Below, piece after piece: positions 5,625 through 25,300 of a stretch of DNA of 25,300 nucleotides. The notes beneath the pieces are model-generated. The model did no database searches. It worked only from the letters and a program-made list of their open reading frames with translations, and had not been told where the DNA came from. Every line of letters starts with the position of its first letter. The stretch's first letter is position 1. The position numbers were made by a program, and so were the translations under genes. The stretch is taken from positions 1 to 25,300 of the IMG/VR virus record IMGVR_UViG_3300024262_004010; one strand, written 5' to 3'. This DNA comes from a virus.

Positions 5625-5645
5625 AATATATTTTTTGAAAGAGCT

Positions 5646-5674: not shown

Positions 5675-5695
5675 AATTAAACTAAGTAATTTTTA

Positions 5696-7012: not shown

Positions 7013-7060
7013 TTCAATAAATTTTTCAGTAATATTATTTTTCAATTGTAATTAATGCTA

Positions 7061-8538: not shown

Positions 8539-8549
8539 TATCCTTTTTA

Positions 8550-8561: not shown

Positions 8562-8565
8562 ACAA

Positions 8566-8595
8566 ACAAAAAAGACTACGCACCGCATAGTCTTT
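8566..8595 (-). terminator. Rho-independent terminator of virion operon
   Basis: Minus strand: AAAGACTA / TAGTCTTT (8595-8588 with 8578-8571), with three further inner pairs around a GGT loop, then a run of T (the A-run just left of 8571). It lies 24 nt after the stop of the 716-aa gene and closes the four-gene operon. Confidence 0.85.
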
Positions 8596-8619
8596 ATTTT
8601 GTCAGAAAGCATGATTTAA

Positions 8620-10770: not shown

Positions 10771-10782
10771 AGCTCTTGTTTT

Positions 10783-11229
10783 TTATTCAAAAATTATTGG
10801 ATTGGCTTTGCCAAACTTTCTCATTATTATTGCTGCTTCCGCATTTGCTTCGTTCTCAATGTCGGTTCCATCATCTCCTGCTCCCATATGGAGTCTACCT
10901 TCAAACTTCTGCTTTTCATGAACAAGTTCATGCGCCAGTGTTCTAAGAACATCGGCTAGGTTTCGGTTAGCAGCAACCACCCTAACAACCCCAGTACTTG
11001 GGGTATTTAAACCAAACGAAGCCATTTTCCTTGCTTCAGTTGGGTCATATGATATTTCAATCTTTAACTTACTAGAATCAATTCCCAGATATTCACAAGC
11101 AAACTCAATGAGTTGCTGAATAATATCGTTCTTCTTCTCCTTGGGGAGAAGTTCTTCATTAATACGATTGACCTTATTCACCATTTCAAAGAGTCTTTCC
11201 TTCGAACCATATGGGTGAAATACTCTCAT
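10783..11229 (-). CDS. Putative zinc metallopeptidase (HExxH)
   Basis: A 148-aa protein with a clear gluzincin-type site: H100-E-L-V-H104 with E101 as catalytic base, and a likely third ligand in ENEANA (E127, or E125). This layout resembles the small ImmA/IrrE- and SprT-like phage peptidases. The substrate is unknown. The first 25 residues, MRVFHPYGSKERLFE and on to RINE, mirror the start of the 716-aa protein, suggesting a shared targeting leader. It contains two LxE/IxE sites that could be cut by a T4-type prohead protease. It lies in the virion-type operon, 12 nt from the next gene. A role in virion maturation or in acting on a host protein after injection would fit; neither is shown. Confidence 0.8.
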   Translation of the reverse strand: MRVFHPYGSKERLFEMVNKVNRINEELLPKEKKNDIIQQLIEFACEYLGIDSSKLKIEISYDPTEARKMASFGLNTPSTGVVRVVAANRNLADVLRTLAHELVHEKQKFEGRLHMGAGDDGTDIENEANAEAAIIMRKFGKANPIIFE

Positions 11230-11232
11230 TAC

Positions 11233-11994
11233 TTAAACAATATCATTAAAACTATTCTGTACATCAATTTTGGACTTCTGAGGTAAATCATCGAAATCAG
11301 CAACATATGTACCATCTGGTAATTCTTTTATTCCACCACTTTGTTCTTCAGCACGTTTTTGTTCAAACCAGTTGTCTCCCCACATATCATTTAAATTAAA
11401 ATAATAGGGATAACTCACATCGGTTTTATTCATAAGTTTCTCACCACTAGTTGGTTCACGCACCTCTTCAACATCAGCATTTAAAGCATCCAATTTAGCA
11501 TTTAATGCGTCTTGGGTTGCACTTAAATTTGCTAATTCACTAGCAATCCCCTTCATAGCTTCGATATTATATTTGATAATTTCATTTTGAAGGTCATCAA
11601 CTTGGTGTTCGGCTTCTTGAGGGTCAGGAGCCATTGGGTCTCCCATAGGGTCTGCGCCCGGAGTAGCTACTGGTTCTCCCATTGGGTCCATAGGTTCGCC
11701 TTCAGGTGGCATTCCTGCCTCTGGTGCTGGTGCACCGCCTTGAGCGTCTAATGGTGGAGGGGTAGGAGGTTGTTCGGCTCCTTGCGGAACATCGTTACTT
11801 GGCGCAGGGGGTGCTTGTCCCTCTGGCTTCTCCGCATCCTCTTGCTCCCCAGCTTCTAGCATAGGAACTTCATCAAATTCCTCATTACTGGTTACCAATG
11901 GACGATACTTAGGCGTTTCGCTGATTAGATATTCAGTACGATGTTTAAACTTCCTCAAGTATTCTTCAGAAAGTTTCGATTTGTTATTTTCCAT
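11233..11994 (-). CDS. Pro/Ala-rich coiled-coil protein, probable virion or scaffold component
   Basis: A 253-aa protein with no recognised family. Residues about 45-128 are a low-complexity acidic Pro/Ala/Gly/Met linker with repeated PMG/PMD units. Residues about 128-178 have heptad-like Leu/Ile/Ala spacing that predicts a coiled coil. The C-terminal 70 residues are Tyr/Trp/Asp-rich (YPYYFNLNDMWGDNWFEQ). The basic N-terminus ends in YLISE, another possible IxE cleavage site. I use ATG at 11994; a TTG two codons earlier would also be in frame. It starts 13 nt after the 58-aa gene and ends 3 nt before the peptidase gene. A head or scaffold role is inferred from composition and position only. 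Confidence 0.75.
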   Translation of the reverse strand: MENNKSKLSEEYLRKFKHRTEYLISETPKYRPLVTSNEEFDEVPMLEAGEQEDAEKPEGQAPPAPSNDVPQGAEQPPTPPPLDAQGGAPAPEAGMPPEGEPMDPMGEPVATPGADPMGDPMAPDPQEAEHQVDDLQNEIIKYNIEAMKGIASELANLSATQDALNAKLDALNADVEEVREPTSGEKLMNKTDVSYPYYFNLNDMWGDNWFEQKRAEEQSGGIKELPDGTYVADFDDLPQKSKIDVQNSFNDIV

Positions 11995-12007
11995 TGTCAA
12001 ATGAGTA

Positions 12008-12184
12008 TTAGTATTGCTCTCTAAGTAATTGTCTGCCCTTTTTATCTACAAGAATCTTATCATACCTTTCGATAAGTCCTTCTCTTTCATCGATAACAAC
12101 CTTTTTAACGTTCTTATCTTCAGCAACCTCTTCTTGAGGTTCGTCAACAAAATTACTAAGTGCTTTTTCTTGTTTATTTTCCAT
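12008..12184 (-). CDS. 58-aa charged protein, first gene of virion operon
   Basis: An ATG at 12184 opens a 58-codon frame ending in TAA. The protein starts MENKQEKALSNFVDE, is strongly charged and ends RQLLREQY; its middle (IDEREGLIERYDKILV) is probably helical. No family was recognised. It fills the space between the glycan operon and the 253-aa gene and lies right behind a GAGTATTTAT element. Small charged proteins at such positions in T4-like phages are often prohead-core or assembly factors (compare T4 gp67 and gp68), but no sequence similarity is claimed. Confidence 0.7.
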   Translation of the reverse strand: MENKQEKALSNFVDEPQEEVAEDKNVKKVVIDEREGLIERYDKILVDKKGRQLLREQY

Positions 12185-12190: not shown

Positions 12191-12214
12191 TATATTTATT
12201 TAATATAAATACTC
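12191..12214 (-). promoter_or_regulatory. Candidate late promoter of virion operon
   Basis: Minus strand: GAGTATTTAT (12214-12205) followed by AT-rich sequence containing AATAAATA about 10 nt before the ATG at 12184. The first element is shared with 8550-8561; the second resembles the T4-type late -10 box TATAAATA. It lies in the 38-nt gap that separates the glycan operon from the virion operon. No terminator is visible in this gap, so read-through from the right is also possible. Confidence 0.4.
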
Positions 12215-12222: not shown

Positions 12223-12861
12223 TCATTTTGACAATATCGTGACTAGATATCTTTTGAGTAGTTCAAATTTGGGAAAGATTTTGTAATAGGATTGGTAGAT
12301 TTCACCCTCGGTGTCATCTGAAATTAAGAATAACGTTCTTTCTTTTAAATACCTCAGTAATTCCGGTATGTCGAATTGAAAGAATTCATACATTTTAAGA
12401 TTTATTCCGGTAATTTTATTGCCTTTGAGGATATAAACCATATCGTTCCGATAGTTGTAAAAACCATCAATGTTTTTCGGTAACACATCCATGAGGTCTT
12501 GCATGTCCCGTAACTGGAATCCCACGGGGTCTAAGTTGATGTAACTATACTTGGGACTGAAATAATAGTCTGGTACGGCTTCGACAAAGGCACTCACACC
12601 ATTTATGTGTTCGGACTTGTTTTCTTTAAAATCAAACTCCCAATACAGTTCATTTGTGATAATTTTTTTCTCAAGAATCTCAGCACCAGCAATAATTGGG
12701 TTCTTGGGATTACAGGTTTTCATGAATTCCCACCCCACATAAAGCGTGGGGAGATTACTATCAAAACTATGGTACTCCATAGGTCCATTGAAGTAATTGA
12801 TGTAATCCGCTTTTGTGTGATTTACTAGTTCGTTGCCATGAATAATGTTACCGATTCTCAT
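12223..12861 (-). CDS. Unknown protein at the end of the glycan operon
   Basis: A 212-aa protein, soluble by appearance, rich in Tyr, Phe, Asn and Ile, and not recognised as a member of a named family. No P-loop, Rossmann, glycosyltransferase DxD or cupin motif is visible. Segments such as YINLDPVGFQLRDMQDLMD and ELLRYLKERTLFLI suggest an alpha/beta fold. Its start overlaps the hldD stop by 14 nt, so it is translated as part of the glycan operon, and it is that operon's last gene. This coupling suggests a role tied to the sugar pathway or its product. It is not GmhA or GmhB as far as motifs show: neither SIS nor HAD signatures are visible. Confidence 0.8.
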   Translation of the reverse strand: MRIGNIIHGNELVNHTKADYINYFNGPMEYHSFDSNLPTLYVGWEFMKTCNPKNPIIAGAEILEKKIITNELYWEFDFKENKSEHINGVSAFVEAVPDYYFSPKYSYINLDPVGFQLRDMQDLMDVLPKNIDGFYNYRNDMVYILKGNKITGINLKMYEFFQFDIPELLRYLKERTLFLISDDTEGEIYQSYYKIFPKFELLKRYLVTILSK

Positions 12862-13822
12862 TTTCTAATTCTTTAATGTATAAATCAATACCTTCTTCTA
12901 ACGTAGTAAAATTATAACCACCCACCTCTCTATTAAATTTATCCATCTTGGCTTGGGTATAGTACTGGTAACTATCCCTAATCTCTTCAGGGGTGTCAAT
13001 ATACGAAATTTTTACTGGTTTTCCCAGAGATTTAAAAATCGCTCGTGCTAAATCGTTGTATGTTCGTGCTGTTCCGGTTCCCAGATTATAAATATCTGAA
13101 GGCAGAAGATGTCTGAGGTCGTATAATAAAATCATCACATTTATAATATCAGAAACGTGAATAAAATCACGTTTTTGCTCCCCATCTTCACACCAATCCA
13201 CGTGTGAACGGAATAGTTTTACTTCACCTGTTTCTTTTATTTGATTGTAAAAATGCCAAATGACTGATGCCATCTTGCCTTTATGTTGTTCATGGTTTCC
13301 GTAAACATTGAAAAACTTCAGACCAAACCAGTGAGTTGGGGTAAGTCTTGGATTCAATAAATGTCTTGCACGTATTCTCCAATCAAACCTATTCTTATAA
13401 TCACCATATGGGTTCAATGGTTTTAAATTACACGGTGCTTCGTCATCATCAAAACCATCTTCACCATCACCATATGTTGCAGCACTACTGGCATAAATCA
13501 TGGGAATATCCGCTTCATTACATAATTCTGCAATTAAAATACTATAATGTAAATTAAGACGCTTAAAAATTTCCTCGTCTTTCTCCATAGTATCAGTGCG
13601 TGCACCAAGATGAAAAATAGCGTCAATATGATATTTATTGAATGGTAACCATAAATAACTGTCTTCAACTGTCATGTATGTAACATTCTTGGTTTCCGTG
13701 AATGTCTCACAATAACTATGAACCCTATTATCGATTATAATAATATCATCATAACCTAACTCAAGTAATTTATTAACGAGATTCTGTCCAATAAAACCAA
13801 GTCCACCTGTTACTACTATCAT
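12848..13822 (-). CDS. hldD: ADP-glyceromanno-heptose 6-epimerase, HldD-like
   Basis: Extended short-chain dehydrogenase that converts ADP-D-glycero-D-manno-heptose to the L-glycero form. The nucleotide-binding motif is TGGLGFIG at 5-12. The active site has ASSAATYG (111-118), Y139xxxK143, and the HldD-typical HKGKMASV with K181, matching the second catalytic lysine of E. coli HldD. QKRDFIHVSD and IYNLGTG follow, as in the family. Its 324 aa is close to E. coli HldD (310 aa). The ATG overlaps the rmlB stop by 4 nt. With the kinase at 15613 and the adenylyltransferase at 14820 it forms the late part of the ADP-heptose pathway. A related ADP-sugar epimerase is the main alternative. Confidence 0.85.
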   Translation of the reverse strand: MIVVTGGLGFIGQNLVNKLLELGYDDIIIIDNRVHSYCETFTETKNVTYMTVEDSYLWLPFNKYHIDAIFHLGARTDTMEKDEEIFKRLNLHYSILIAELCNEADIPMIYASSAATYGDGEDGFDDDEAPCNLKPLNPYGDYKNRFDWRIRARHLLNPRLTPTHWFGLKFFNVYGNHEQHKGKMASVIWHFYNQIKETGEVKLFRSHVDWCEDGEQKRDFIHVSDIINVMILLYDLRHLLPSDIYNLGTGTARTYNDLARAIFKSLGKPVKISYIDTPEEIRDSYQYYTQAKMDKFNREVGGYNFTTLEEGIDLYIKELENENR

Positions 13823-14823
13823 CCCAATAAGTTTTTATAATAATTATATGTAATTTCCAAACCTTCAGAAAAAATCATTTCCGGCTTCCATCCAACATCA
13901 ATTGTGATTTTATTATGATTAATCGCATATCGGAAATCATGTCCTTTACGGTCAGTAACGAAATCGATATAACGATTAAAATCGAGTTCAAGACCCTTAT
14001 CCAAACAATAAATATTAATAAGTCTTTTAACAATATCGATATTTGTCCACTCATTATCACCACCAATATTATAGGTTTCACCAATTCTACCTTTATGAAA
14101 TATGGTGTCAATTGCTTTCACATGGTCACCGACATATAACCAATCCCTGATGTTCTCACCCTTACCATAAACAGGAATCTTTTTGCCCGTAAGTAAGTTA
14201 GTTATGGCTTTTGGTAGAAGTTTTTCAATGTGTTGACGTTCTCCGTAATTATTGCTGCAATTCGAGATTAATGTTGGTAAGCTGTGTGTTTGTCCATATG
14301 CCCTAACAAAGTGGTCAGAACTAGCTTTACTTGCACTATATGGACTACGAGGGTCGTATGGTGTGTCTTCGGTAAATGCAGGGTCATTGAGTCCAAGATG
14401 TCCATAGACTTCATCGGTGCTGATGTGATAAAATGCGTTATCTGGTGTCGTTTTTCCCCACGCATTTCTGGCAGCATCAAGTAGATTCAGTGTGCCCATT
14501 ACATTGGTTTCTGCGAAAATATTGGGTGTCTCAATGCTGTTATCCACATGAGATTCTGCTGCTAAATGAATAATTGCATCAATCTTATCGGCTTTCATTA
14601 TGGCGTGACAATCTCTGGATTTTCTAATGTCGCCATGAAAAACCTTTACGTTCGGATATTTTCCATCTGCCCACTCATTAAATAAATCCACATTTGCTGC
14701 ATAAGTCAAAGAATCCATCACAGTAATATTGTATTCAGGATAGGTCTCGGCAAAATGTTCAACAACATGACTACCAATAAAACCTGCACCACCTGTAATT
14801 AATAAATTTAAATCCTGTTTCAT
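13819..14823 (-). CDS. rmlB: dTDP-glucose 4,6-dehydratase
   Basis: Converts dTDP-glucose to dTDP-4-keto-6-deoxyglucose, the entry to rhamnose and many deoxysugars. It is an NAD-binding Rossmann enzyme with TGGAGFIG at 10-17, the RmlB signature STDEVYG at 135-141 (catalytic T136, D137, E138), and Y162SASK166. SNCSNNYG and ENIRDWLYV, both typical of the family, are present. Its 334 aa is close to the usual length of about 350. Stop and start overlaps of 4 nt join it to hldD and the adenylyltransferase gene. No RmlA thymidylyltransferase is in the window, so dTDP-glucose would come from the host or from genes beyond the right edge. Confidence 0.92.
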   Translation of the reverse strand: MKQDLNLLITGGAGFIGSHVVEHFAETYPEYNITVMDSLTYAANVDLFNEWADGKYPNVKVFHGDIRKSRDCHAIMKADKIDAIIHLAAESHVDNSIETPNIFAETNVMGTLNLLDAARNAWGKTTPDNAFYHISTDEVYGHLGLNDPAFTEDTPYDPRSPYSASKASSDHFVRAYGQTHSLPTLISNCSNNYGERQHIEKLLPKAITNLLTGKKIPVYGKGENIRDWLYVGDHVKAIDTIFHKGRIGETYNIGGDNEWTNIDIVKRLINIYCLDKGLELDFNRYIDFVTDRKGHDFRYAINHNKITIDVGWKPEMIFSEGLEITYNYYKNLLG

Positions 14824-15239
14824 AACGCCTTAATTTTTTCAATAACTCCTGTGGTTGACCTCTGGTCTGTGGGAAAATAAATCACACCATGTTTTGCGTT
14901 CACACCACCAATAACCAGCTTATCCTTGTAATGGTCACCAACAATAATATAGTCGATATCAAACATCCTAATTAGTTGAATGAGTTCTTCATCACTATTG
15001 AAGTCAACAACATGGTCTACCATCTTAAGATTCTTAAGTATCTCCATTCTGTCATAGCATGAATTGATAGGTCTCCCTTCGCCTTTAAGTTGCTTCACCC
15101 TTTCATCACCATCCACCCCTACGATTAACTTATTTCTTGCGTCAAATATTATTCCATCACTATATAACTTTGCGTATCGCAGTAAATCAATGTGTCCTGT
15201 ATGTAGGATGTCAAAGCATCCGTTTACCCAGATGTTCAT
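14820..15239 (-). CDS. hldC: Heptose-1-phosphate adenylyltransferase (HldE C-domain/HldC-like)
   Basis: A nucleotidyltransferase of the cytidylyltransferase fold that would make ADP-D-glycero-beta-D-manno-heptose from the 1-phosphate. GCFDILHTGH at 7-16 contains the HxGH nucleotide-binding motif; GVDGDERVKQLKGEGRP (41-57) and RSTT near 127-130 fit the RfaE domain II pattern. At 139 aa it is a complete stand-alone domain. In E. coli this activity is fused to the kinase in HldE; here the kinase is a separate gene with a cupin gene between. It overlaps its neighbours by 4 nt on each side. A glycerol-3-phosphate-type cytidylyltransferase is a less likely alternative, given the neighbouring genes. 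Confidence 0.85.
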   Translation of the reverse strand: MNIWVNGCFDILHTGHIDLLRYAKLYSDGIIFDARNKLIVGVDGDERVKQLKGEGRPINSCYDRMEILKNLKMVDHVVDFNSDEELIQLIRMFDIDYIIVGDHYKDKLVIGGVNAKHGVIYFPTDQRSTTGVIEKIKAL

Positions 15240-15616
15240 TTCTGACTATCTCCTTTTCCTATTCTATAACTATCATCATCAAAATGTGGTGTGCTGACTT
15301 CAAATATTTCACCTTCAGCAACACAAAATAATTGGTGTGGGTCACCACGTTCAACTTCAATAATATCACCTGCATGTAGTGTCACTATGCGAAGATTAGC
15401 TGTTTTAATATCAATCCAATGTAAAGTAAATTCACCATTTACCACATACCAAGTCTCTTTCTTTTTAATATGAAAATGCATACTGAACGTTGCACCAGCA
15501 TTAAATCTCAGGATTTTTCCACAATACTCTTCATCGTTATGAATAATGACTTCCTCACCCCATGCCTTTGGGACTATACGATTATGAATATCTAATTTGG
15601 AATCTATTATTTTCAT
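15236..15616 (-). CDS. Cupin-domain protein
   Basis: A single-domain cupin of 126 aa. The first cupin motif is visible as GATFSMHFHIKKKETWYVV (metal-binding His pair and Glu), the second as GDIIEVERGDPHQLFCVAEG. It resembles the cupin part of type II mannose-6-phosphate isomerases and related sugar-phosphate cupins, so a role in sugar isomerisation or binding is likely but unproven. I use ATG at 15616, which overlaps the kinase stop as ATGA. A longer frame from 15673 would add a Cys-rich 19-residue stretch that is only the kinase 3' end read out of frame. It sits between the two halves of the heptose kinase/adenylyltransferase system. Confidence 0.82.
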   Translation of the reverse strand: MKIIDSKLDIHNRIVPKAWGEEVIIHNDEEYCGKILRFNAGATFSMHFHIKKKETWYVVNGEFTLHWIDIKTANLRIVTLHAGDIIEVERGDPHQLFCVAEGEIFEVSTPHFDDDSYRIGKGDSQK

Positions 15617-16368
15617 ATCTTCTCTGGGTCTATTACAGCAACACCTTTTTGACTCACAACCCATGCTGCACATCGGTTTGCAAAACGAATTGCCTCACAA
15701 ATATCGTTATTTTTTACGTAATCTGCAACTAAAGCAGCTAAAAAAGTATCTCCAGCACCACTAAGGTCTCTGACTTCGTGTTCTTTTTCTATTGTAAAAT
15801 ATGATTCGTTATTGAGCGTAGCACCTTTCTGCCCACGAGTAACAATAACATCACCCTCGTGAAATTCTTTTAAATATTTCTCATTAAGAAGAAATTCTTT
15901 TTCATTAATTTTAATAAATTCAGCATCACTAATCCATTCCTCAATTACTTTTTTTGTATCAATAAAAACCAGAGGGTGGTGATATAGGATATATTCAATA
16001 TTTTCCTGATTCAAAAACCCTTTGTTGTAATCACTAACAATCACGGCATCGTAATCATCAAAAATTATCTTGGTCAATTCATTAGAATTAATAGGTTTAA
16101 TTTCATCTTTTTCATCAACCCTAAGTAACATCTGATTGCTAATTTCATCGACATACCGGGTCTTAACGGGTCGGATATCATTTGTAATTATATCGACCTC
16201 GATACCAAGTGCCTTGAGGTTTTCCATGACATTTATTGCCATACCACCATTACCTGTGGTTCTCGTGGGTTTGAATATTGGCACGGGTGCTTCAGGACTA
16301 AGCCTATCACATTTTCCGTATCGGAATACGTCTTCACAACTATCACCAATTACTAATATTTTTTTCAT
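15613..16368 (-). CDS. hldA: Heptose-7-phosphate kinase (HldE N-domain/HldA-like)
   Basis: A PfkB/ribokinase-family kinase that would phosphorylate D-glycero-D-manno-heptose 7-phosphate at C1. The N-terminal GDSCEDVFRYGKCDRLSPEA (8-27) and the GNGGMAINV segment (39-47) match the RfaE kinase pattern. The PfkB signature DLSGAGDTF at 201-209 provides the catalytic Asp (D207) and anion hole. At 251 aa it is shorter than the usual kinase domain of about 310-320, so some loops are trimmed. Its start shares TAATG with the upstream RmlD-like gene and its stop overlaps the cupin start. Substrate identity rests on RfaE-like motifs and on the nearby hldC and hldD genes. Confidence 0.85.
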   Translation of the reverse strand: MKKILVIGDSCEDVFRYGKCDRLSPEAPVPIFKPTRTTGNGGMAINVMENLKALGIEVDIITNDIRPVKTRYVDEISNQMLLRVDEKDEIKPINSNELTKIIFDDYDAVIVSDYNKGFLNQENIEYILYHHPLVFIDTKKVIEEWISDAEFIKINEKEFLLNEKYLKEFHEGDVIVTRGQKGATLNNESYFTIEKEHEVRDLSGAGDTFLAALVADYVKNNDICEAIRFANRCAAWVVSQKGVAVIDPEKI

Positions 16369-17198
16369 TATTCTGCCGATAAAATATTGAAATAGTTATA
16401 CATCTCAATGATTTGGTCCTTCAATTCTTTCACAATCACACCAGAATCATCATATTTTGTGGTCATGGACCTGTCACATTTTGTGGGTGTTTCAAAAGGA
16501 TTAATGGTCAAACCCAATCCATATATCTCTGAAATTAATGTGGTTAGTTCGAGTTTATTGACACTTGTTGGCGAAAACACGTGTCTAACGCCTTTCCAAT
16601 ACAAATCCTTTTCGATTATTTGTTGACAAATCTTGGCGAATTCCAAACAAGTTATACCATTCCATTGATGATTAGTGAACCCGTTAACAGTTCCACCCTT
16701 ATTTGACTTAATCCACTCAACTAGTGAACGTCCCTGATTAACCTCATCGCCAATGATTGATGTTCTAATCACTGTTGAATTCTCCGGTTCCCCAAGTGAC
16801 TTGGTTCTACCGTAAATGTCTGTTACGTTATGTGGATGGTCTTCATCATATTGACCCTCCAAACCATCGAAAACACAATCGGTTGTTGGGTGAATTAACT
16901 CAACATCCATATCAGCCAGAACCGCCTCTAAGACGTGTGGAAATACTGAATTAATATTGATTGCATTCAAGACACCCAATTCATCAACTCTTGGCTTTAT
17001 TACACCCATACAATTAATAACAACATCACCCTTACCTAATTCGAGGCTAGTGAAATATTCGGCTAATACCGCCCTCTTCACTTCTCCAATATCAACATCT
17101 TTCCTTGACACTCCAATGGTATCATATCCACAAGATTTAAAGTATGTGTAAACATATCGCCCTAACATACCAGTTTTTCCTAAAACAACTATTTTCAT
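16368..17198 (-). CDS. RmlD-like sugar-nucleotide reductase
   Basis: A 276-aa short-chain dehydrogenase of the dTDP-4-dehydrorhamnose reductase type. A Rossmann motif GKTGMLG is at 7-13, TTDCVFDG at 105-112 (the RmlD family has STDYVFDG here) and Y129GRTK133. I use ATG at 17198; an upstream extension of 23 codons would run through the end of the zinc-ribbon gene and has no family counterpart. It could reduce a dTDP-4-keto sugar made by RmlB and the RmlC-like protein, or a related UDP- or GDP-linked keto sugar. It follows the zinc-ribbon gene by 19 nt and shares TAATG with the kinase gene. Confidence 0.82.
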   Translation of the reverse strand: MKIVVLGKTGMLGRYVYTYFKSCGYDTIGVSRKDVDIGEVKRAVLAEYFTSLELGKGDVVINCMGVIKPRVDELGVLNAININSVFPHVLEAVLADMDVELIHPTTDCVFDGLEGQYDEDHPHNVTDIYGRTKSLGEPENSTVIRTSIIGDEVNQGRSLVEWIKSNKGGTVNGFTNHQWNGITCLEFAKICQQIIEKDLYWKGVRHVFSPTSVNKLELTTLISEIYGLGLTINPFETPTKCDRSMTTKYDDSGVIVKELKDQIIEMYNYFNILSAE

Positions 17199-17217
17199 TT
17201 CATTAAATTTTTTAATA

Positions 17218-17397
17218 TTATAATTTCTCACCACAATCATCGCAAAGCTGACCTGCACCCTCAACATAATATTTTCTCAAATCTATGTGAGTGTCAATAA
17301 AGACGTTGGTTTCCTTTCCACAAGAAACACATTTCTCCTTTTTCCTTTTTGGTAGAGTCCTAAAGAACTTCTCACCATATGCTGAATCGCTTCCCAT
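17218..17397 (-). CDS. Small zinc-ribbon protein
   Basis: A 59-codon frame from ATG at 17397 to TAA. Two CxxC pairs, KCVSCGKE (C23, C26) and QLCDDCGEK (C52, C55), 25 residues apart, give a four-Cys zinc ribbon, preceded by a basic patch KRKKEK. Its ATG overlaps the stop of the RmlC-like gene as TAATG, and the next gene starts 19 nt after its stop. These junctions and the motif make it a real gene even though it is short. No family name is assigned. It might bind nucleic acid and regulate the operon, or act as a protein-protein adaptor; neither is shown. Confidence 0.78.
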   Translation of the reverse strand: MGSDSAYGEKFFRTLPKRKKEKCVSCGKETNVFIDTHIDLRKYYVEGAGQLCDDCGEKL

Positions 17398-17819
17398 TAT
17401 CTATACTCCTTTTTAAATATTGGATAATCTTCATAAGGCAATCGAAAATCATCGCCTTGTGCTTCTTCCATAGTTACTGTACTGAAAAACATCAACACCG
17501 TGTCTTCTTCAAGAGTTTGGAACCCGTTATATTTTCCGGGTGGAATCCAAAGAATTTTGGGGGTCTTGGCACTCAAAACATATTTTTCTTCAATTTCGGT
17601 TTCCATATCGACTACTCCTATCCATGCCGTGCCTTTCACAACATATACATATTTTCCTTCTTTTTTGTGTCCATGCCATGCACGGATAAAACCTCGTTCA
17701 TGATTCTCAACCTGATAAAATCTTTTAACACCTTCAAAACCAAAATTATTGACAAAACTCAATGACCCTCTGTCATCGACAAACGTACCACCATTAATTA
17801 GTTTACATTGCTTTTCCAT
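17397..17819 (-). CDS. RmlC/WxcM-like sugar epimerase (cupin)
   Basis: A 140-aa protein with the RmlC-like jelly-roll pattern: FVDDRGSLSFV near 13-23, RAWHGHKKEGKYVYVVKG near 45-62, and ILWIPPGKYNGFQTLEEDTV near 88-107. This is the single-domain cupin type that includes dTDP-4-keto-sugar 3,5-epimerases and the FdtA/WxcM-like 3,4-ketoisomerases. Standard RmlC is longer (about 180 aa) and has an RGLHYQ motif where this protein has RAWHGH, so exact chemistry is uncertain. It lies between the NAD-dependent epimerase and the zinc-ribbon gene with TAATG overlaps on both sides. It probably acts on a keto sugar made by RmlB. Confidence 0.82.
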   Translation of the reverse strand: MEKQCKLINGGTFVDDRGSLSFVNNFGFEGVKRFYQVENHERGFIRAWHGHKKEGKYVYVVKGTAWIGVVDMETEIEEKYVLSAKTPKILWIPPGKYNGFQTLEEDTVLMFFSTVTMEEAQGDDFRLPYEDYPIFKKEYR

Positions 17820-18769
17820 TATATTTCTTTTAGATTTTTCTTTATAAATTGACCATTATTATAGGCTTCGTCCCTCACATTACAAATTCGATTCTCATTA
17901 AATAGTTTCACCAATAACTCAACCTCAGATTCTAATGTGTGTTGTGGTTTGTATTCAAATAATTTATCGGCTTTCTCTGAACTCACGTGATAATTTCTGG
18001 CATCCTCAAAAGAAATATCAGTCATAACCATTTTGGTATCCGGTAGGACTTTGCATATACGCTCCCCCAATATCTTCATTGTAACGTTTTCCTGTGATAA
18101 GATAATCGTACCTCTGATGTCCTTACGAACGGCTTCCTCGATATAACCTGAAATGTCTTTAACACAAATTAATGGTCTCCATTGTTCGCCACCAAAAATA
18201 TGAATTTCTTTATCATACACGGACTTCATCGTCACAACATTCGCAACCAAATCCAGTCTTATTCTTGAATACGTGTCTCCGATTCCAAAAACTGTTCCTA
18301 AACGGAATATGGTTCCACCAATTTCCTTAACATATTCTTCAGCAGCCAATTTTGTTGTAGCATATGCTGATAAGGGGTTGGTCCGGCTTTCCTCGTCCAA
18401 AATATCGTGTTGTGCACCATATACACTACAGGTACTCATGAAAATTACGTGTTTTCCCTTACCAATAGCCTCACAAATATTTTTGACCGCAACCCGGTTA
18501 ATTGAGTCTGTGAGTTCAACATCAACACTACATGCCGGGTCTCCGACTAATGCTGCCATTATCACAACCACATCATAATTCTTTGCGAGTTCCGCAACAA
18601 CATCGGTATCACGAATGTCGCCATGAACGAAATCGACCTTTTTCAAATACCTTGTTTCATACACAAGTTTATCGAAAACAGTAACATCGTGTCCTTTACT
18701 AATAAGATAATCAGTGGTATAACCACCAATATATCCTGCACCACCTAATAATAAAATCTTTTTACCCAT
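17819..18769 (-). CDS. NAD-dependent epimerase/dehydratase (extended SDR)
   Basis: A 316-aa extended short-chain dehydrogenase. GGAGYIGG at 9-16 binds the dinucleotide; STCSVYG (112-118) and Y136ATTK140 form the catalytic set. RLGTVFG and EQWRPLICVKD fit the sugar-nucleotide-binding C-terminal part. It resembles UDP-glucose 4-epimerase and related sugar dehydratases, but motifs do not fix the substrate. It starts 2 nt after the methyltransferase stop and shares TAATG with the RmlC-like gene. It is one of four SDR-type genes in this operon (with hldD, rmlB and the RmlD-like gene), each clearly distinct in sequence. Confidence 0.85.
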   Translation of the reverse strand: MGKKILLLGGAGYIGGYTTDYLISKGHDVTVFDKLVYETRYLKKVDFVHGDIRDTDVVAELAKNYDVVVIMAALVGDPACSVDVELTDSINRVAVKNICEAIGKGKHVIFMSTCSVYGAQHDILDEESRTNPLSAYATTKLAAEEYVKEIGGTIFRLGTVFGIGDTYSRIRLDLVANVVTMKSVYDKEIHIFGGEQWRPLICVKDISGYIEEAVRKDIRGTIILSQENVTMKILGERICKVLPDTKMVMTDISFEDARNYHVSSEKADKLFEYKPQHTLESEVELLVKLFNENRICNVRDEAYNNGQFIKKNLKEI

Positions 18770-18771
18770 AT

Positions 18772-19395
18772 CTAATTTTCTTTATTTTTTATGTGAATAT
18801 ATTGCCACTTCGCAACAGTATGATTATAGTGTCGGACTTCTGAGACCCAGACAATCTCACCTCCGGCTTCATCTACAATCTTTTCCATATCCGATAACCG
18901 TCTAATTACACCACCACCCATCTGAAATTCTTGGGATTGATGCTTCTCGTAATCTCCCTCATAATCAACATCCTCTCTAAATGCAAACTGCATCGCAAAC
19001 ACCGCATTGGTTTTTAATGATGGTAATACCGCTCTGATTTGATTCAACAAAGTGTCGTCATTTATGTGTTGGGTAACGAGATGGGATATTGCTAAATCAT
19101 ATTTCCTTTTTGGTATCTCACTAAGGTTAGATGCTAGAAATTGATTTTGGGTTATGTCCATTACCTTCTCCAACGCCTTTTCCGATATATCCAGCACATC
19201 CACAAGTACTCCGACATCAACTAGTTCCTTTGTACAATACCCCATTCCAACACCAATATTTAATATATTCTTACCCTCTTTTATTGATTCTTGGATATTC
19301 ATGTATTCCAATAATTCCTCTAAGTGAGAACCAGTTAGCCACTTCCGAAATTTCTTTTCGTGATTTATTTCCCAATAATTTTTAATTTTTCCCAT
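18772..19395 (-). CDS. SAM-dependent methyltransferase
   Basis: A 207-aa class I methyltransferase. Motif I is NILNIGVGMGYCTKEL (43-58), followed by an acidic residue near the end of the second strand (VLVDVLDIS, about 63-71). The YDLAISHLVTQHI segment (99-111) fits motif II/post-II. The N-terminal 40 residues form an amphipathic helical cap. Context points to methylation of a sugar or sugar nucleotide, but a lipid or protein acceptor cannot be excluded. The start overlaps the DUF2061 stop by 14 nt. Confidence 0.82.
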   Translation of the reverse strand: MGKIKNYWEINHEKKFRKWLTGSHLEELLEYMNIQESIKEGKNILNIGVGMGYCTKELVDVGVLVDVLDISEKALEKVMDITQNQFLASNLSEIPKRKYDLAISHLVTQHINDDTLLNQIRAVLPSLKTNAVFAMQFAFREDVDYEGDYEKHQSQEFQMGGGVIRRLSDMEKIVDEAGGEIVWVSEVRHYNHTVAKWQYIHIKNKEN

Positions 19396-19624
19396 TACTA
19401 TTTTCCTTTACATCATCATCCACTGAACGACCATAATTTATTTTACTCCAAATTCTCTCAAAGAAGTAAAAAACAACAAAACCCGTTATATTCATAATTA
19501 CTGCCCTAGTCAAATTCCCACCGGACATCACAACCGACAATATAATCCACGAATTTAATGTGGCGACCACTCTCCATGAAACGGTTTTTAATAGTGTTCT
19601 TTTTTTACTCTCTTTTATCGCCAT
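19382..19624 (-). CDS. DUF2061 small membrane protein
   Basis: An 80-aa membrane protein matching the DUF2061 pattern: a basic start, then TLLKTVSWRVVATLNSWIIL (10-29) and, after a GGNLTRA turn, a second hydrophobic segment (about 43-57) ending FYFFERIWSKI. Two transmembrane helices are predicted by eye; the C-terminal tail is charged. The family's function is unknown. Its overlaps with WecB (20 nt) and the methyltransferase (14 nt) show that it belongs to the operon. It is the only obvious membrane protein of the run, so it might anchor the pathway at the inner membrane. Confidence 0.8.
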   Translation of the reverse strand: MAIKESKKRTLLKTVSWRVVATLNSWIILSVVMSGGNLTRAVIMNITGFVVFYFFERIWSKINYGRSVDDDVKENSNGKN

Positions 19625-20699
19625 TAATTTCCTTAATTTTATCTACAATCAGTTGGGAAGTATTTCCACTACCAAGCCAATTGGGGTTAATTTCTATAAT
19701 ATTATGTGCCACATCATCTAAATAATCAATCGAATTAACCCAAGTCTCATCCATATATTGATTTACATCAATCATAAAAGAACAATTAGTTTCAACAGAT
19801 TCTGGTCTTTCTGTGTAATCTCGTGGGACAATGACTGGTGTATTTAATAACGCAGGTTCTTCCTGTGCGGTTCCACTGTCTGATATAATAAATAAGCTAT
19901 CATATACGGCACTAATATATTTTTTGTACGACATCAAGGGAATTAATTCGATATTTCCTAATTCGATGCCCCATTCATTTAATTTCTGCTCGGTTCTCCC
20001 AAAGTTAAGTATTTTAATTGGTAATTGAGAGTCTTTTGAAATCCATTTGGCATATCTAATAATGTTTCTTAGCCTATTTTCATATTTAAAATTTTCTGGG
20101 CGGTGAATATCCAGAATTATTTGATTATTTAATTTAGGTGTTGCAAATAAATCCGATTTAAATTCATTGGCTACCTCAACAATTGTATTGCCCACCACAC
20201 TAATCCGTTCTTCGGGAATACCTTCTTTTAATGCCTTTTTCTTATAATTTTCGTGATATACGAATAGATGGTCAGAACAATGGTCACAAACCACCCTATT
20301 GATTTCTTCCAGCATTCTCCGGTCATACGAGCGCATTCCGGCTTCGATATGTGCTATGCGATATCCTTCTTTTTTTAGTGCCACAGCAGATACTACTGAA
20401 TTCGAATCTCCGAGGAAACAAATTAAATCTGGATTAATGTTATTATTTCTAATTAATTCGATGACCTTAACCGATAAATCAGCAGTTTGATGAAAATGTT
20501 CTTTACCAATTCCACCAATTTCAAGATTATAATCAGGTTTTCTAATATTTAATTCCTCAAAAAAAACTTCGGAGAGCATTTTATCATAATGTTGTCCAGT
20601 ATGCACTAAAATATGCTCAAAATTTTCGTCAAATGCCTTGAATATTTTTGACATTCTGATAAAATCCGGTCTTATTCCTGTTATTGTTAATATTTTCAT
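19605..20699 (-). CDS. wecB: UDP-N-acetylglucosamine 2-epimerase
   Basis: Interconverts UDP-GlcNAc and UDP-ManNAc (GT-B fold, WecB family). Family motifs are present: TGIRPDFIR (R10), HTGQHYD (33-39), GDSNSV with D98, HIEAGMRS (E119), EEINR (131-135), DIHRPEN (H199) and SDSGTAQEE (273-281) with the UDP-binding region around TERPE. The residues shown to matter in bacterial WecB all have counterparts. The first motif is TGIRPD, where most members have GTRPE. Its 364 aa is normal. It overlaps the upstream glycosyltransferase gene by 4 nt. A hydrolysing 2-epimerase is possible. The product UDP-ManNAc is a precursor of many surface glycans. Confidence 0.88.
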   Translation of the reverse strand: MKILTITGIRPDFIRMSKIFKAFDENFEHILVHTGQHYDKMLSEVFFEELNIRKPDYNLEIGGIGKEHFHQTADLSVKVIELIRNNNINPDLICFLGDSNSVVSAVALKKEGYRIAHIEAGMRSYDRRMLEEINRVVCDHCSDHLFVYHENYKKKALKEGIPEERISVVGNTIVEVANEFKSDLFATPKLNNQIILDIHRPENFKYENRLRNIIRYAKWISKDSQLPIKILNFGRTEQKLNEWGIELGNIELIPLMSYKKYISAVYDSLFIISDSGTAQEEPALLNTPVIVPRDYTERPESVETNCSFMIDVNQYMDETWVNSIDYLDDVAHNIIEINPNWLGSGNTSQLIVDKIKEINGDKRE

Positions 20700-22528
20700 C
20701 GAATAATAATTTTATTTGGGTTTGCTCTAATAATATTTTCAACTGCTGTTGTTTTAGCATATAATTGATGATTCTTTAATCTCAATTCCTTCGCATCTGT
20801 TTGGGAATATTGGAATGGTGGGTGTGATTGATGAATGACGATAGCGTTTTTGACGAACGTAATTTGCATTTTTTTTCTTTTAATTCTATCTAAAAACTCA
20901 ATATCATCACGTTCAATTCCGTAAGCATATCTTTCATCAAATCCATTTAAATCAGCCAAATCTTTTCTGGTTATAGCCACACAAAAATTTAATGCCAACG
21001 GTCTAAATTCTTTATGACAATACCATTGATTTTCCGGTGAATTGTCCTTAACATCTATTTTAATTATTTTATCTATTTGTTTTTGATAATCTTTCGACCA
21101 ATCAATTGTTGCTAATTGAACACTAATATCTTTATTTAAAGTACTATATGCCAGATATTTATTTTTACTTAAATTCTTCACCACATGATTAAACACATCC
21201 CCATAATGAAAACATTCGGGATTCTGAATAATAATTTTATCTCCAGATGTCTGACTTAATGCAATATTTGTTGGTATACTGGGGTTCGTATAGTTTTTAT
21301 TCTCCTTCTCTATTCTATGTACTTTTAAAAACTCAAATTCTTTCTGTAAATCCTCAATGCGGTGTTCCTCATCACTCCCATCATCAACAACAATTACCTC
21401 AAAATTCTTATATTCACTTTTCTTCATACTATGGAGAGTATTAATTAGATGTTGTTTTCGGTTATAATATGCCATTACCACCGATATTAATTTAGGATTC
21501 GAGGAAATTGTGATTTTTTTAATGTCTGCCTCACCAAATGTTTTGGTATTATTTATTTTACTTAATATCTTGGTTTTCGACATTTCTTTATATGAATCAT
21601 ATATGTTGGAATTTCTTTTCTGATATGAAAAATAGATGTCATTACTTGGGGGATTATTTACTCCCGGCTTCGAAGACCCATCATGGTGTAAATGTAATGC
21701 CGTTGATTCGACCATATGAATATGAAACCCCATTTTTTTTATTTTTTCATCAAAAATATAATCCTGAAATCCCCATCCGTAAGAATTTTCATCATATCCC
21801 TTTATTTCCAGAAATCTTTTTCTTTTTATTAAGTAAATTCCACCAGTAATTACTGAAGGAGAGAATATTTTTCTATTTAATATCATATTATCTATATGGT
21901 CTTGGGATGCGAATTCAATTGTTTCTGGTTCATTCAACCAATATAAATATTTATATGGGTTTACCACATCATAATCTTCCAATAATTTTATTGCTATGTG
22001 ATATGTTTGGGCAGAGACAAGCACATCAGAATCATTAAATAATAAATTATCGTGTCTTGCACTCTTTGCTCCAACATTATACCCCCACCCCTTATTAAAT
22101 ATTCCATCATTTTTTAAGAAAATATGTTTAATATGTTCGTAATTATTTATTTCGTGAAGCCAATTAACCTTACTTTCAATATCTTGCTCAACAATAATCA
22201 TTTCTATGTCATCACATAAATATTTCGAAAAGAAATTCAGGATTTTCCGTAAATTTCTTTTCCTATCTTCATAACTTTCTTTATAAGAAATGATTATTGA
22301 TAAAGGTTTTTCTGTTAACTGAGCAATTTCCTGACTAAACTCCAACATTGTTTTTTTATTAACATTAAGGGGTCTACCCGCTCTGCGTTCATTTCTGCTA
22401 ACTAACTCAACTGGAAGTGGTGTAGTCGGCATTCTTAATTTATCTCTAACACCCATTCTTGATTTTTTTATTTTGAGTTCAATTCTTCTTTTAATTCTTT
22501 TTTTTATGCTACGATTTTGTGCTTTCAT
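20696..22528 (-). CDS. Two-domain glycosyltransferase
   Basis: A bifunctional-looking glycosyltransferase of 610 aa. A very basic N-terminus (about 1-35) precedes the first domain at about 75-290, with NDSDVL (165-170) as the DxD metal site and GYDENSYGWGFQDY (244-257), typical of the galactosyltransferase C-terminal motif. The second domain (about 347-590) is GT2/GT-A: ISVVMAYYNRK, VVDDGSDEEH with the Asp pair near 382-383, and GIERDDIEFLDR as the late acidic motif. The layout recalls two-domain polymerases such as chondroitin synthase. I use ATG at 22528, 11 nt after the methyltransferase stop; a GTG at 22552 would add 8 residues. The second domain is a close paralog of the protein at 23108. 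Confidence 0.82.
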   Translation of the reverse strand: MKAQNRSIKKRIKRRIELKIKKSRMGVRDKLRMPTTPLPVELVSRNERRAGRPLNVNKKTMLEFSQEIAQLTEKPLSIIISYKESYEDRKRNLRKILNFFSKYLCDDIEMIIVEQDIESKVNWLHEINNYEHIKHIFLKNDGIFNKGWGYNVGAKSARHDNLLFNDSDVLVSAQTYHIAIKLLEDYDVVNPYKYLYWLNEPETIEFASQDHIDNMILNRKIFSPSVITGGIYLIKRKRFLEIKGYDENSYGWGFQDYIFDEKIKKMGFHIHMVESTALHLHHDGSSKPGVNNPPSNDIYFSYQKRNSNIYDSYKEMSKTKILSKINNTKTFGEADIKKITISSNPKLISVVMAYYNRKQHLINTLHSMKKSEYKNFEVIVVDDGSDEEHRIEDLQKEFEFLKVHRIEKENKNYTNPSIPTNIALSQTSGDKIIIQNPECFHYGDVFNHVVKNLSKNKYLAYSTLNKDISVQLATIDWSKDYQKQIDKIIKIDVKDNSPENQWYCHKEFRPLALNFCVAITRKDLADLNGFDERYAYGIERDDIEFLDRIKRKKMQITFVKNAIVIHQSHPPFQYSQTDAKELRLKNHQLYAKTTAVENIIRANPNKIIIR

Positions 22529-22538
22529 TGGTTTAATC

Positions 22539-23099
22539 TTAATCACCCCCACTTTCTAAAATATAGCAATATAATTTATCGTCATACATTTTAAATGACT
22601 CGATTATTTTAAAATATTTACTTAATTTCCTATCCCACCAATCTTTATCTTCTTGAATTAAATGAAGCTCAATGCCATTTTGAATGTCAGGATGATTCGC
22701 AACACCTAAACAAAATCTATTTGATAGGGTTCTAAAAAACATTAATATGTCATCAATATATTTTTCTTCGACATGTTCCAACACATCTAAGCATGATAAT
22801 AAATCATATGTACCCATCACATTCTTATAGTCATCCTTCTCACATAAATCTAACCGAATAAATTCCACATCTAAATTATTAAATTTCTCTAAATCCGTAG
22901 ATGTGATTTCAATGTCCCTAATTAATTCCTTAAGGTATTTTATTAAAAATCCCCTTCCTGACGATATGTCAATTAATTTTTTATGTTTGTATCTAATTAC
23001 ATCATCAATAACGAAATCGTATCTTTCCTTATCGATAATATGTAAATTATATCCATCATTACCATTAAATATGTTTTTATATGTGTCTTTATTCGTCAT
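22539..23099 (-). CDS. SAM-dependent methyltransferase
   Basis: A 186-aa class I methyltransferase. LIDISSGRGFLIKYL (42-56) is motif I, D69 lies at the end of the second strand (TSTDLEKF), and YDLLSCLDVLEHVE (98-111) is motif II. It is related in fold but not closely in sequence to the methyltransferase at 18772. It lies between two glycosyltransferase genes, 8 nt after one, and so probably methylates a sugar in the growing glycan. The acceptor is unknown. Confidence 0.8.
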   Translation of the reverse strand: MTNKDTYKNIFNGNDGYNLHIIDKERYDFVIDDVIRYKHKKLIDISSGRGFLIKYLKELIRDIEITSTDLEKFNNLDVEFIRLDLCEKDDYKNVMGTYDLLSCLDVLEHVEEKYIDDILMFFRTLSNRFCLGVANHPDIQNGIELHLIQEDKDWWDRKLSKYFKIIESFKMYDDKLYCYILESGGD

Positions 23100-23107
23100 G
23101 ATTTATT

Positions 23108-23911
23108 TTATATTTTAATTACCAAATTATTATCGGCATAAACCTTATTTTCTCTCGATGTCACATTATGAAACAAATCTCTATTCCTATTGGTTAGTTC
23201 ACCTGCTTTGGGGTGTTGATATGCTTGTTCGTGAAATTGGTGGACAACTACCCTATCATCAATAATTCTAACATTCAGTCCCAGCTTCATCACCCTATTT
23301 AAAAATTCATCATCATCATAACCAATTCCATCACCATATCTTTCATCAAATCCATTTAATTTCTTCATATTCGAATTATGAATTGCTGCACAGAAGTGAT
23401 ATGCTTTGGGTCGATAAGTACTGTGATTATACCAACCCGGAAGATTAAAATCATAAAAAATCCGGGGCACTAGTGGTGAAATTATCGTTCTCATGTCATC
23501 CCTTGTTAAATTGGGTTTTGATGTTGCTCGATTTGTTTGGTCCTTATTAATTGAATATGTCGAGAACGCATAATATTCGTTCTCCTTTAAATTCTCATCA
23601 ACATATGACATAATATCATCAAGATGAAAACATTCGGGGTTCTGTAAAATAATTATTTCCCCGGTTGCATCCTTAATACCAATATTAAAAGGAACCGATG
23701 GGTTAACATGCTTCTTTTCTTCTTTTTTAATTTTAATAACACGTAAAAATGGATAAGTTTGCATTAAATCAGTAATATCGTGTTCCTCATCACTCCCATC
23801 ATCTACAACAATAAATTCAAAGTCTTTAATTACGGATTCATTGATTGAAAGCAGTGTTGTTTCCAATAATGGTCTCCTATTAAAATATGTCGCAACAATT
23901 GAAATTTTCAT
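23108..23911 (-). CDS. GT2 family glycosyltransferase
   Basis: A 267-aa inverting GT-A enzyme of family 2. ISIVATYFNRR (3-13) begins the nucleotide-binding fold; VVDDGSDEEH (35-44) contains the metal/nucleotide-binding Asp residues; GYDDDEFLNRV (197-207) supplies the likely catalytic base region. It shares long motifs (VVDDGSDEEH, NPSxPxNI, QNPECFH) with the second domain of the protein at 20696, and the coding DNA around the first motif is nearly identical over about 30 nt. A recent duplication is likely. Sugar donor and acceptor are unknown. One base separates it from the upstream gene. Confidence 0.85.
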   Translation of the reverse strand: MKISIVATYFNRRPLLETTLLSINESVIKDFEFIVVDDGSDEEHDITDLMQTYPFLRVIKIKKEEKKHVNPSVPFNIGIKDATGEIIILQNPECFHLDDIMSYVDENLKENEYYAFSTYSINKDQTNRATSKPNLTRDDMRTIISPLVPRIFYDFNLPGWYNHSTYRPKAYHFCAAIHNSNMKKLNGFDERYGDGIGYDDDEFLNRVMKLGLNVRIIDDRVVVHQFHEQAYQHPKAGELTNRNRDLFHNVTSRENKVYADNNLVIKI

Positions 23912-23912
23912 A

Positions 23913-24725
23913 TCAATAATTATTGTAATTAACCAATTTGAACTTAGGTTCTATTTTTTCTAACTCCACCTCACCCCTTTGGAGCTTTGCAACCAAATTC
24001 TCACCATTCCAATTATTATAATAATCAATAATTTCTTGGATGAAATTTCCTCTATCATAATTTATTTTTGCTGATGAATTAATTAATTTGGGTCTAATAT
24101 CTTTTCTCACCATCGTCATGTGGTGCATTATTATGAAATCTGGGTCGAATAATCGGTAATTGGGGAAATTAGGTCTTCTTGTTGGGTCCACGGGATTTGG
24201 GACGATATTATATGCCCAAGTATAATTAACATTTTTATGAAATATTGGAACAAATAATGAGACCTTCGTTTCATCCTTCCCTTTCAACAAGAATTCCGGG
24301 GTCTTATAGTAACTTTCTAATTCACAATATGTCATACTATCTGGGTTAGTCTTATAGAATTCAATTAGGTTAGAAAACTCTTCTTTGACATAGAATTCGT
24401 CAGTATCCATTGACATATGATGAGTACAATAATTCCTTCGAGATAGTTCTAACCCGATATTTCTTTTAGTTAATTCGTTATGGTGGCAATATTGTTGTCC
24501 AAATTGTTGAGGTACAAACTCAAATATTTCATCAACTAAACCATCGTCTTTTAAATCCAATAATAAATCGAGTAAATCATCACTACAATCATTACCAAAA
24601 TTAGATTTTTTTTGGTAGACAACTGAAATATATTGAACGAATTCTCGAATTGACAGAATTGAATCTTCAAGCAATTCTTCACCATCAAAAACATTGTAAC
24701 TAACTCCAAACTTTATGAAACTCAT
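23913..24725 (-). CDS. Glycosyltransferase-like protein
   Basis: A 270-aa protein resembling GT-A glycosyltransferases of the GT2-like/GT92-like kind. An opening strand VSYNVFDGEELLEDSI (8-23) and a parallel strand YISVVYQ precede an HHNELTKRNIGLEL helix and the DxD-type motif MDTDEF (106-111). HHMTMVRKD near 215 could provide further active-site residues. The motifs suggest sugar transfer, but the family is not secure. It overlaps the neighbouring glycosyltransferase gene by 4 nt at its start and lies 1 nt from the GT2 gene at its end. Confidence 0.7.
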   Translation of the reverse strand: MSFIKFGVSYNVFDGEELLEDSILSIREFVQYISVVYQKKSNFGNDCSDDLLDLLLDLKDDGLVDEIFEFVPQQFGQQYCHHNELTKRNIGLELSRRNYCTHHMSMDTDEFYVKEEFSNLIEFYKTNPDSMTYCELESYYKTPEFLLKGKDETKVSLFVPIFHKNVNYTWAYNIVPNPVDPTRRPNFPNYRLFDPDFIIMHHMTMVRKDIRPKLINSSAKINYDRGNFIQEIIDYYNNWNGENLVAKLQRGEVELEKIEPKFKLVNYNNY

Positions 24726-25300
24726 GATAATCTTATATGTTTATTAAGTACTTCTTTATTCTCTAAATAAAAAGGATGAAGTCTTTCAAAATAATCCCTA
24801 TTTAACTTCTCTATTTTATCACCACTCTTATCTCTCGATACCGATTCAAAATGATATGCCACGGCATCACTAACTGTGATATTCCTCTTATTTTTTATCA
24901 AACATTTAAGATTAAGTTCGACATCCTCAAAACATTCGATATAAGATTCATTTAAATAACCACATTCAATAAATACTTCCTTATTAATTAATAGAAACGC
25001 TCCAGTATTTCCTAATGAATGTTGATTTACTGTAGTTCGATATTTTTCAGTTTTACGGATATCGATATGTGTAAGATGAATATTTTCAGTGCTATCCCTA
25101 ATAATTCCAATACCATTATGTTGAATACTCGCATCGCCATAATGTAAACGGATACCTATTGTCCCAACACTATTTTTATTTTGATTATAAATTTCAACTG
25201 TTCTACTCAGGGCATCATTCAGTAAAACAATATCGTCATTACAGAATAGTAATAACTCGGTATCGGCACTAACATGATTACGTACCACGTCATTATTGAT
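24722..25300 (-). CDS. GT2 glycosyltransferase, 5' end cut by window edge
   Basis: Open to the right edge; the frame continues past 25288 (reading I-N-N-D before the GTG there), so that GTG is not the true start. The visible 190 residues are the middle and C-terminal part of a GT2 enzyme like the rhamnosyltransferase group. LLLFCNDDIVLL carries the DxD-like metal motif, VGTIGIRLHYGDASIQHNG is the family's central segment, GAFLLINKEVFIECGYL follows, and ECFEDVELNLKCL has the catalytic ED pair. YHFESVSRDKSGD near the end is also typical. The family likeness makes transfer of a deoxysugar such as rhamnose plausible, in line with the Rml-type genes. Confidence 0.83.
   Translation of the reverse strand: MNNDVVRNHVSADTELLLFCNDDIVLLNDALSRTVEIYNQNKNSVGTIGIRLHYGDASIQHNGIGIIRDSTENIHLTHIDIRKTEKYRTTVNQHSLGNTGAFLLINKEVFIECGYLNESYIECFEDVELNLKCLIKNKRNITVSDAVAYHFESVSRDKSGDKIEKLNRDYFERLHPFYLENKEVLNKHIRLS

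Follow-up and report, generated by a model that had tools for sequence, protein, structure and literature searches.

The window analysed here is the whole of IMG/VR virus record IMGVR_UViG_3300024262_004010 (positions 1-25,300; 25.3 kb), and it carries on its minus strand an unbroken run of open reading frames (ORFs) from a DnaB-like helicase gene (677-2602) to the contig end. Its right half is an operon for glycan synthesis, placed next to T4-type replication genes. That this is phage DNA with a real multi-gene glycan operon, as had been proposed from the letters alone, is supported. What the original prediction misses is the key point: this operon is one allele, that of the window phage, of a hypervariable, swappable glycan island. 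The island occupies a slot between a gp53-like gene and a gene here called u212; its flanks are fixed, its first gene is nearly so, and it has a host-type promoter to itself. The phage is a member of a widespread, uncultured group of T4-type jumbo phages, the hosts of which are probably Bacteroidota.

One slot, many alleles

A scan of viral contigs with the UvsX-like recombinase of the window yields 124 relatives (the best 80 of the 124 were kept), on contigs of up to 364,702 bp, and tblastn with all window proteins finds the same block order in relatives, many of which also have sugar genes running into u212-u58-u255. The original prediction had suggested looking for its gene order elsewhere; more than 50 IMG/VR contigs have sugar genes-u212-u58-u255, and several of these are 200-365 kb long. 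The u212 alignment takes in 64 loci, and in 54 of these the order, read as far as each contig extends, is baseplate genes, a gp53-like 104-aa gene, island, u212, u58, u255, mp148, u716, str471. The left flank of relatives' islands contains a T4-like baseplate protein (PF12322, 2.6e-7), an OmpA-domain protein, the baseplate-wedge-like (gp53-like) 104-aa protein and a probable tape-measure protein. (The tape-measure gene is reportedly not findable in moraphages (PMC12619734); in the tail cluster of G002, an 825-aa protein (L105:11705-14182) is tape-measure-like by inspection and has no family match.)

Fifteen distinct islands can be seen end to end, with 1-16 genes in 1.6-12.6 kb; others, truncated by contig ends, exceed 20 genes, and G006 has 29. 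A PF13712 glycosyltransferase is present in all 15 whole islands, as first gene in 13 and second in two, and in L164 and L168 it is the entire island. What lies behind it varies: the 473 island proteins of 53 contigs make up 205 families, of which 134 have a single member. Identity in the island is only weakly correlated with identity in the core (r = 0.32), and 150 of 1228 comparisons put the island genes over 10 points higher than the core, which is a sign of exchange. L129 and L151 share only three or four island genes, with most compared core genes 72-91% identical.

The possibility that phage and bacterial DNA were artificially joined near 12200 is refuted by recurrence, and we give it practically no weight. 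The same junction is found in many independent contigs, including L048 (hldD 72% and u212 79-80% identical). A mild drop of GC to the right of the junction is all that speaks for a chimera, or for host chromosome on that side: third-position GC is 0.32 to the left and 0.29 to the right, and codon frequencies correlate at 0.88. Since all 41 related contigs compared have a lower GC in the island than in the core (the two correlating at 0.93), the drop is a property of the island and not a break into host chromosome.

It is also very improbable that the island is filler DNA, host genes accumulated passively for headful packaging, although the LPS-type genes of cyanophages have been left as either functional or stuffer DNA (PMC3037559). 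Median dN/dS of island genes is 0.16 and the maximum 0.31 (197 pairs, picked at 70-97% protein identity, a choice that may make the value too low), so that the genes do not behave as filler. The fixed slot, the common first gene, the dedicated promoter motif, the intact and overlapping ORFs and the retention of a heptose cassette across phage groups point the same way.

The group itself is recognizably T4-like. A T4-like major capsid protein (PF07068) scores above cut-off in five of seven large related contigs (the other two, G004 and G006, may be fragments), and a divergent family-B DNA polymerase (PolB) is found in 12 of 13. Among isolates, Flavobacterium phage immuto (MW353175) has the closest UvsX, at 35% identity; it shares the order ssb-uvsX-exo-dnaB but, in the annotated regions read, has no glycan island beside that block. 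Moraphages are similar, being uncultured jumbo phages of Bacteroidota that have T4-like genes and core glycosyltransferases and contain variable islands of uncharacterised content (PMC12619734). Membership was nevertheless rejected, on the strength of one missing common gene: lysine-tRNA ligase is present in 24 of 28 moraphage/ERM genomes (PMC12619734), whereas the class II lysyl-tRNA synthetase domain (PF00152) is in none of 13 contigs here.

Genes of the island and its flanks

The original count of at least 17 leftward genes holds for minus-strand ORFs of at least 80 aa, the outermost being truncated by the contig end (Table 1); a 59-aa zinc-ribbon ORF, below the size range first considered, raises the total to 18. 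The overlaps of 1-20 nt claimed for most neighbours are confirmed, with gaps of at most 8 nt elsewhere, except at cupin/hldE1 (61 nt) and at the small ORF and rmlD (about 48 nt). Both larger overlaps are probably effects of start choice: one of the two starts at cupin/hldE1 may be wrong, and for rmlD 17198 is a more likely start than 17267. The separation of 38 nt from the neighbouring operon, between u212 and u58, is as stated.

Table 1. Features of the window
Feature	Position	Strand	Evidence or remark
Source record IMGVR_UViG_3300024262_004010	1-25,300		whole 25.3-kb record
GT192, C-terminal part of two-domain glycosyltransferase	24722-25300	-	PF13712 + GT2 in full-length relatives; truncated by contig end
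u270, island protein	23913-24725	-	after GT192 in L126, L129, L151
GT2-family glycosyltransferase, 267 aa	23108-23911	-	PF00535 1.7e-12
SAM-dependent methyltransferase, 186 aa	22539-23099	-	family matches
Glycosyltransferase, 618 aa, two GT2-type domains	20696-22552	-	family matches
UDP-GlcNAc 2-epimerase family (WecB-like)	19605-20699	-	PF02350 2.6e-66; TIGR00236 195 bits, under 210-bit cut-off
DUF2061 small predicted membrane protein	19382-19624	-	family match
SAM-dependent methyltransferase, 207 aa	18772-19395	-	family matches
NAD-dependent sugar epimerase/dehydratase (SDR)	17819-18769	-	PF01370 4e-34
RmlC/FdtA-like sugar isomerase	17397-17819	-	PF00908, PF05523
Zinc-ribbon ORF, 59 aa	17218-17397	-	absent from original list
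RmlD-like reductase	16368-17267	-	start probably 17198
hldE1, compact heptose-7-phosphate kinase-like PfkB kinase, 251 aa	15613-16368	-	phrog_8133 4e-84; TIGR02198 147 bits, under 345-bit cut-off
Cupin of heptose cassette	15236-15673	-	phrog_7851 7.9e-35
hldE2, heptose-1-phosphate adenylyltransferase-like	14820-15239	-	phrog_7878; TIGR02199 94 bits, under 181.5-bit cut-off
RmlB, dTDP-glucose 4,6-dehydratase	13819-14823	-	TIGR01181 394 bits, over 365-bit cut-off
HldD, ADP-glyceromanno-heptose 6-epimerase	12848-13822	-	TIGR02197 319 bits, over 275-bit cut-off; PDB HldD matches 5.5e-47
u212, final gene of island transcript, conserved at island 3' edge	12223-12861	-	recurrence in relatives
GTATTTAT promoter-like motif upstream of u58, start of next transcription unit	12205-12212	-	motif search
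u58, first gene of conserved flanking block	12008-12184	-	recurrence
Conserved flanking block: u255, mp148 (metallopeptidase-like), u716, str471	7123-12000	-	recurrence in relatives
GTATTTAT motif before str471	8552-8559	-	motif search
Host-type promoter TTG-N20-TATATTTG before ssb	7061-7091	-	same class as pre-island promoter of relatives
Replication block: DnaB-like helicase, unk223, 5'-3' exonuclease, UvsX-like recombinase, ssb	677-7045	-	ssb named by synteny with phage immuto

Protein families confirm the predicted mixture of sugar-nucleotide enzymes, methyltransferases (two) and glycosyltransferases (at least three). HldD and RmlB are above NCBIfam equivalog cut-offs; the RmlD-like, RmlC/FdtA-like, WecB-like and heptose kinase and adenylyltransferase calls are below cut-off or rest on Pfam. 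The truncated GT192 aligns with profile positions 309-498 (of some 500) and so represents the C-terminal 190 residues of its family; in relatives, a member of this family opens the island behind gp53. To judge from these relatives, the contig probably stops about 0.9 kb short of promoter and gp53. The next gene, u270, has no Pfam or PHROG match. At the other edge, u212 has a confidently predicted fold (pLDDT 92.6 with 49 sequences; a first model was poor), for which there is no PDB match below E 0.06 and just one viral homologue, an uncharacterised one. None was found in cellular genomes, and u212 therefore offers no direct link to a host. Recoded stop codons were considered and rejected: TAG within the match of four u212 relatives marks ORFs that end a few residues earlier, and TAG readthrough gave no gain of coding cover in seven other big contigs.

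Of the 41 contigs in which five or more genes lie upstream, 24 (about 60%) have the hldE1 kinase, and 16 of these have hldE2 and hldD too; the best solved relative of the kinase is the heptose kinase 4e84. The full cassette, hldE1-cupin-HAD-hldE2-hldD, is seen in L115, L134, L137 and L150, for example; the window is without the HAD-like gene and has rmlB in its position. There is no GmhA in the window, and it is a speculation that the cupin substitutes for this isomerase. In cyanophage P-SSM2, genes 309-313 encode the five protein types of the cassette side by side (hldE2, hldE1 kinase, a 95-115-aa HAD-like protein, cupin and sugar epimerase); by our own reading, gene 311, annotated as phosphoheptose isomerase, is the HAD-like protein. 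Four of the five types, T4-GC 304, 305, 307 and 308, co-occur in three cyanophages (PMC3037559); the S-SM2 kinase is only 49% identical to that of the window. The 95-aa HAD-like protein of relatives has no Pfam match. Such small proteins (95-114 aa; L084:11419-11706, L101:24312-24656), with DIDGTIC-type and IDDK motifs, are almost invisible to Pfam and are common to cyanophages and these jumbo phages. Two candidates for heptose transfer were discarded: the one scanned of the 332-343-aa proteins before hldE1 is an Epimerase_2 protein, and a 254-aa protein of L151 has no Pfam support as GT9-like.

T4-type replication genes do lie to the left, as the original prediction had it (DnaB-like helicase, UvsX-like recombinase, 5'-3' exonuclease). 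Some features of the flanks and of relatives' genes are recorded in passing. u716 and mp148 (8620-10770 and 10783-11229) share at their N termini some 20 residues of the pattern MRVxHPxGSKERLxEMxxKVN; L129 and L151 have it as well, and it is perhaps a targeting signal. A tRNA-Met gene lies at 460-545, with a host-type promoter match upstream (586-615). The DnaB-like genes of L021, L024 and L037 encode 813-1056 aa, compared with 641 aa in the window, the match being split by about 1.7 kb; the in-frame insertion is possibly an intein. The thymidylate synthase of L184 (537 aa) has an in-frame insert resembling an embedded homing-endonuclease-type sequence, and a thymidylate-synthase-family protein of L182 (G002) has DCHLYEAH instead of GDTHLYVNH and may be a different pyrimidine-modifying enzyme.

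Two classes of transcription motif

Two motifs stand before genes of this group. One, GTATTTAT, marks flanking virion genes: it precedes gp26 (4/4), TMP (4/4), bp1084 (7/8), u58 (47/48) and str471 (54/59), and none of uvsX, exo, unk223 or dnaB. The Bacteroidota-type promoter, TTG-N18-23-TAnnTTTG, precedes ssb in 43 of 48 cases and lies between gp53 and the island in eight of 14, with 0.15 expected by shuffling; several of the remaining gaps contain degenerate versions of it. Inside islands it turns up six times in 393, against 3.45 expected. With a host-type promoter in front and few within, island and u212 look, on motif evidence, like a single unit read by host RNA polymerase and ending at the start of the u58 unit. 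Late transcription of the island from GTATTTAT was rejected: that motif stands before the first island gene in only one of the 15 contigs listed (L159), and the host-type promoter is there in most. The class of promoter suggests that island expression would be early or middle. Shine-Dalgarno sequences are missing at most starts; their rarity is expected in Bacteroidota (PMC6847099).

What the glycan may decorate

That the phage makes its own glycan, for virion, host surface or another target, was the core of the original prediction; the operon is in keeping with it. What the analysis shows is gene content, position, selection and motif statistics, and the targets discussed here are proposals. 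The island is probably used for coating the phage's own particles or for changing the host surface. We lean, at a little short of an even chance, to a phage-encoded cytosolic pathway that most likely serves virion decoration, with host-surface change as the main rival. Host RNA polymerase would transcribe the island as one unit early or midway in infection, and the enzymes would make activated sugars in the cytosol (dTDP-deoxysugars, an N-acetyl sugar via the 2-epimerase and an ADP-heptose-like sugar). The conserved PF13712/GT2 enzyme would put the first sugars on an acceptor that is conserved in the phages and is most likely a virion protein, and variable glycosyltransferases and methyltransferases would build an outer glycan differing between phages. 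Diversifying pressure, for instance from host receptors, surface traps or competing phages, would favour the swapping of cassettes, as at bacterial O-antigen loci.

Wzx flippase (PF01943) and initiating transferase (PF02397) are absent in 15 contigs in which controls were positive (the polymerase was not searched for), and in a set of 149 island ORFs a single one is predicted to have at least two membrane segments, a lower bound, as the threshold missed DUF2061. This combination points towards a soluble acceptor, of which a virion protein is the simplest case. It counts against a host-surface polysaccharide modified in infection, in which phage glycosyltransferases and sugar nucleotides would feed the host's lipid-linked assembly, masking receptors and blocking superinfection, as do GT9 heptosyltransferase matches in just two of 15, minimal islands of one soluble glycosyltransferase and a slot that borders baseplate genes. 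That alternative, which we consider doubtful, nevertheless stays strong. Flippases and lipid carriers could be borrowed from the host, so that their absence from the phage leaves room for a surface role; the promoter class before the island is that of the replication genes, and early expression suits superinfection exclusion; the sugars predicted to be made (heptose, deoxysugars) are of LPS type; and such a role has been proposed for pelagimyophage glycosyltransferases (PMC7029224). Virion decoration, the acceptor for which is putative, has a further difficulty of its own: the promoter classes, defined here by motif, suggest early or middle expression, yet the fibril-glycan genes of Megavirinae are expressed late (PMC10117803).

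Glycans on modified bases of phage DNA, protecting it from restriction, are, we think, a quite unlikely destination. In favour of it, phage glycosyltransferases are able to hypermodify DNA, and with glycans of many kinds (literature cited in PMC12619734); the island has replication genes for neighbours, and ssb has a promoter of the same class. However, two of four thymidylate-synthase-family genes keep the usual PFN motif (L184 has GFN, L182 PYN), and three of seven contigs have no gene of this family, yet every island has the first glycosyltransferase (kinases for DNA modification were not searched for); islands of up to at least 29 genes, with aminotransferases and methyltransferases, look excessive for base modification.

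A bolder construction, which we regard as possible without holding it likely, makes the island an antigenic-variation locus: cassettes would be recombined at fixed flanks behind a constant priming glycosyltransferase under a host-type promoter, and related phages would thereby display differing glycan coats (phage serotypes), including heptose from a compact phage-borne pathway in which the cupin may replace GmhA.

The original emphasis on a sugar-gene load much above the one or two genes common in tailed phages is not supported as put, since large sugar clusters have precedents: cyanophages P-SSM2 and S-SSM7 have large LPS clusters (PMC3037559), the hypervariable island of pelagimyophages includes glycosyltransferases (PMC7029224), and in moraphages four groups of glycosyltransferases are core (PMC12619734). 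The LPS-type clusters of P-SSM2, S-SM2 and S-SSM7 are also in T4-type phages, but in another host group and location, with no fixed first glycosyltransferase or gp53-u212 slot reported (PMC3037559). The pelagimyophage host recognition cluster is likewise hypervariable, with glycosyltransferases and rfaE amid structural genes of T4-like phages; it mixes tail fibres with sugar genes between VrlC and gp14 (PMC7029224), whereas the present island consists almost purely of glycan genes, runs from the gp53-like gene to u212 and has its own host-type promoter. Clusters of Megavirinae have 6-33 nucleotide-sugar and glycosyltransferase genes, conserved flanks and clade-specific content (PMC10117803). 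They belong to eukaryotic viruses, have late promoters and are linked to virion fibril glycans; here the viruses are bacteriophages, the promoter is of Bacteroidota type and the acceptor is only a candidate. New in this phage group are the dedicated slot, the constant first enzyme, the dedicated host-type promoter and the swapping of alleles.

On the question left by the cyanophages, whether LPS-type clusters are functional or filler (PMC3037559), selection, fixed slot and dedicated promoter say functional. More than 50 alleles of one locus provide a comparative system for acceptor, priming enzyme and glycan diversity. The parallels with bacterial O-antigen loci and giant-virus glycosylation clusters suggest that large viruses of different domains have converged on swappable glycan islands.

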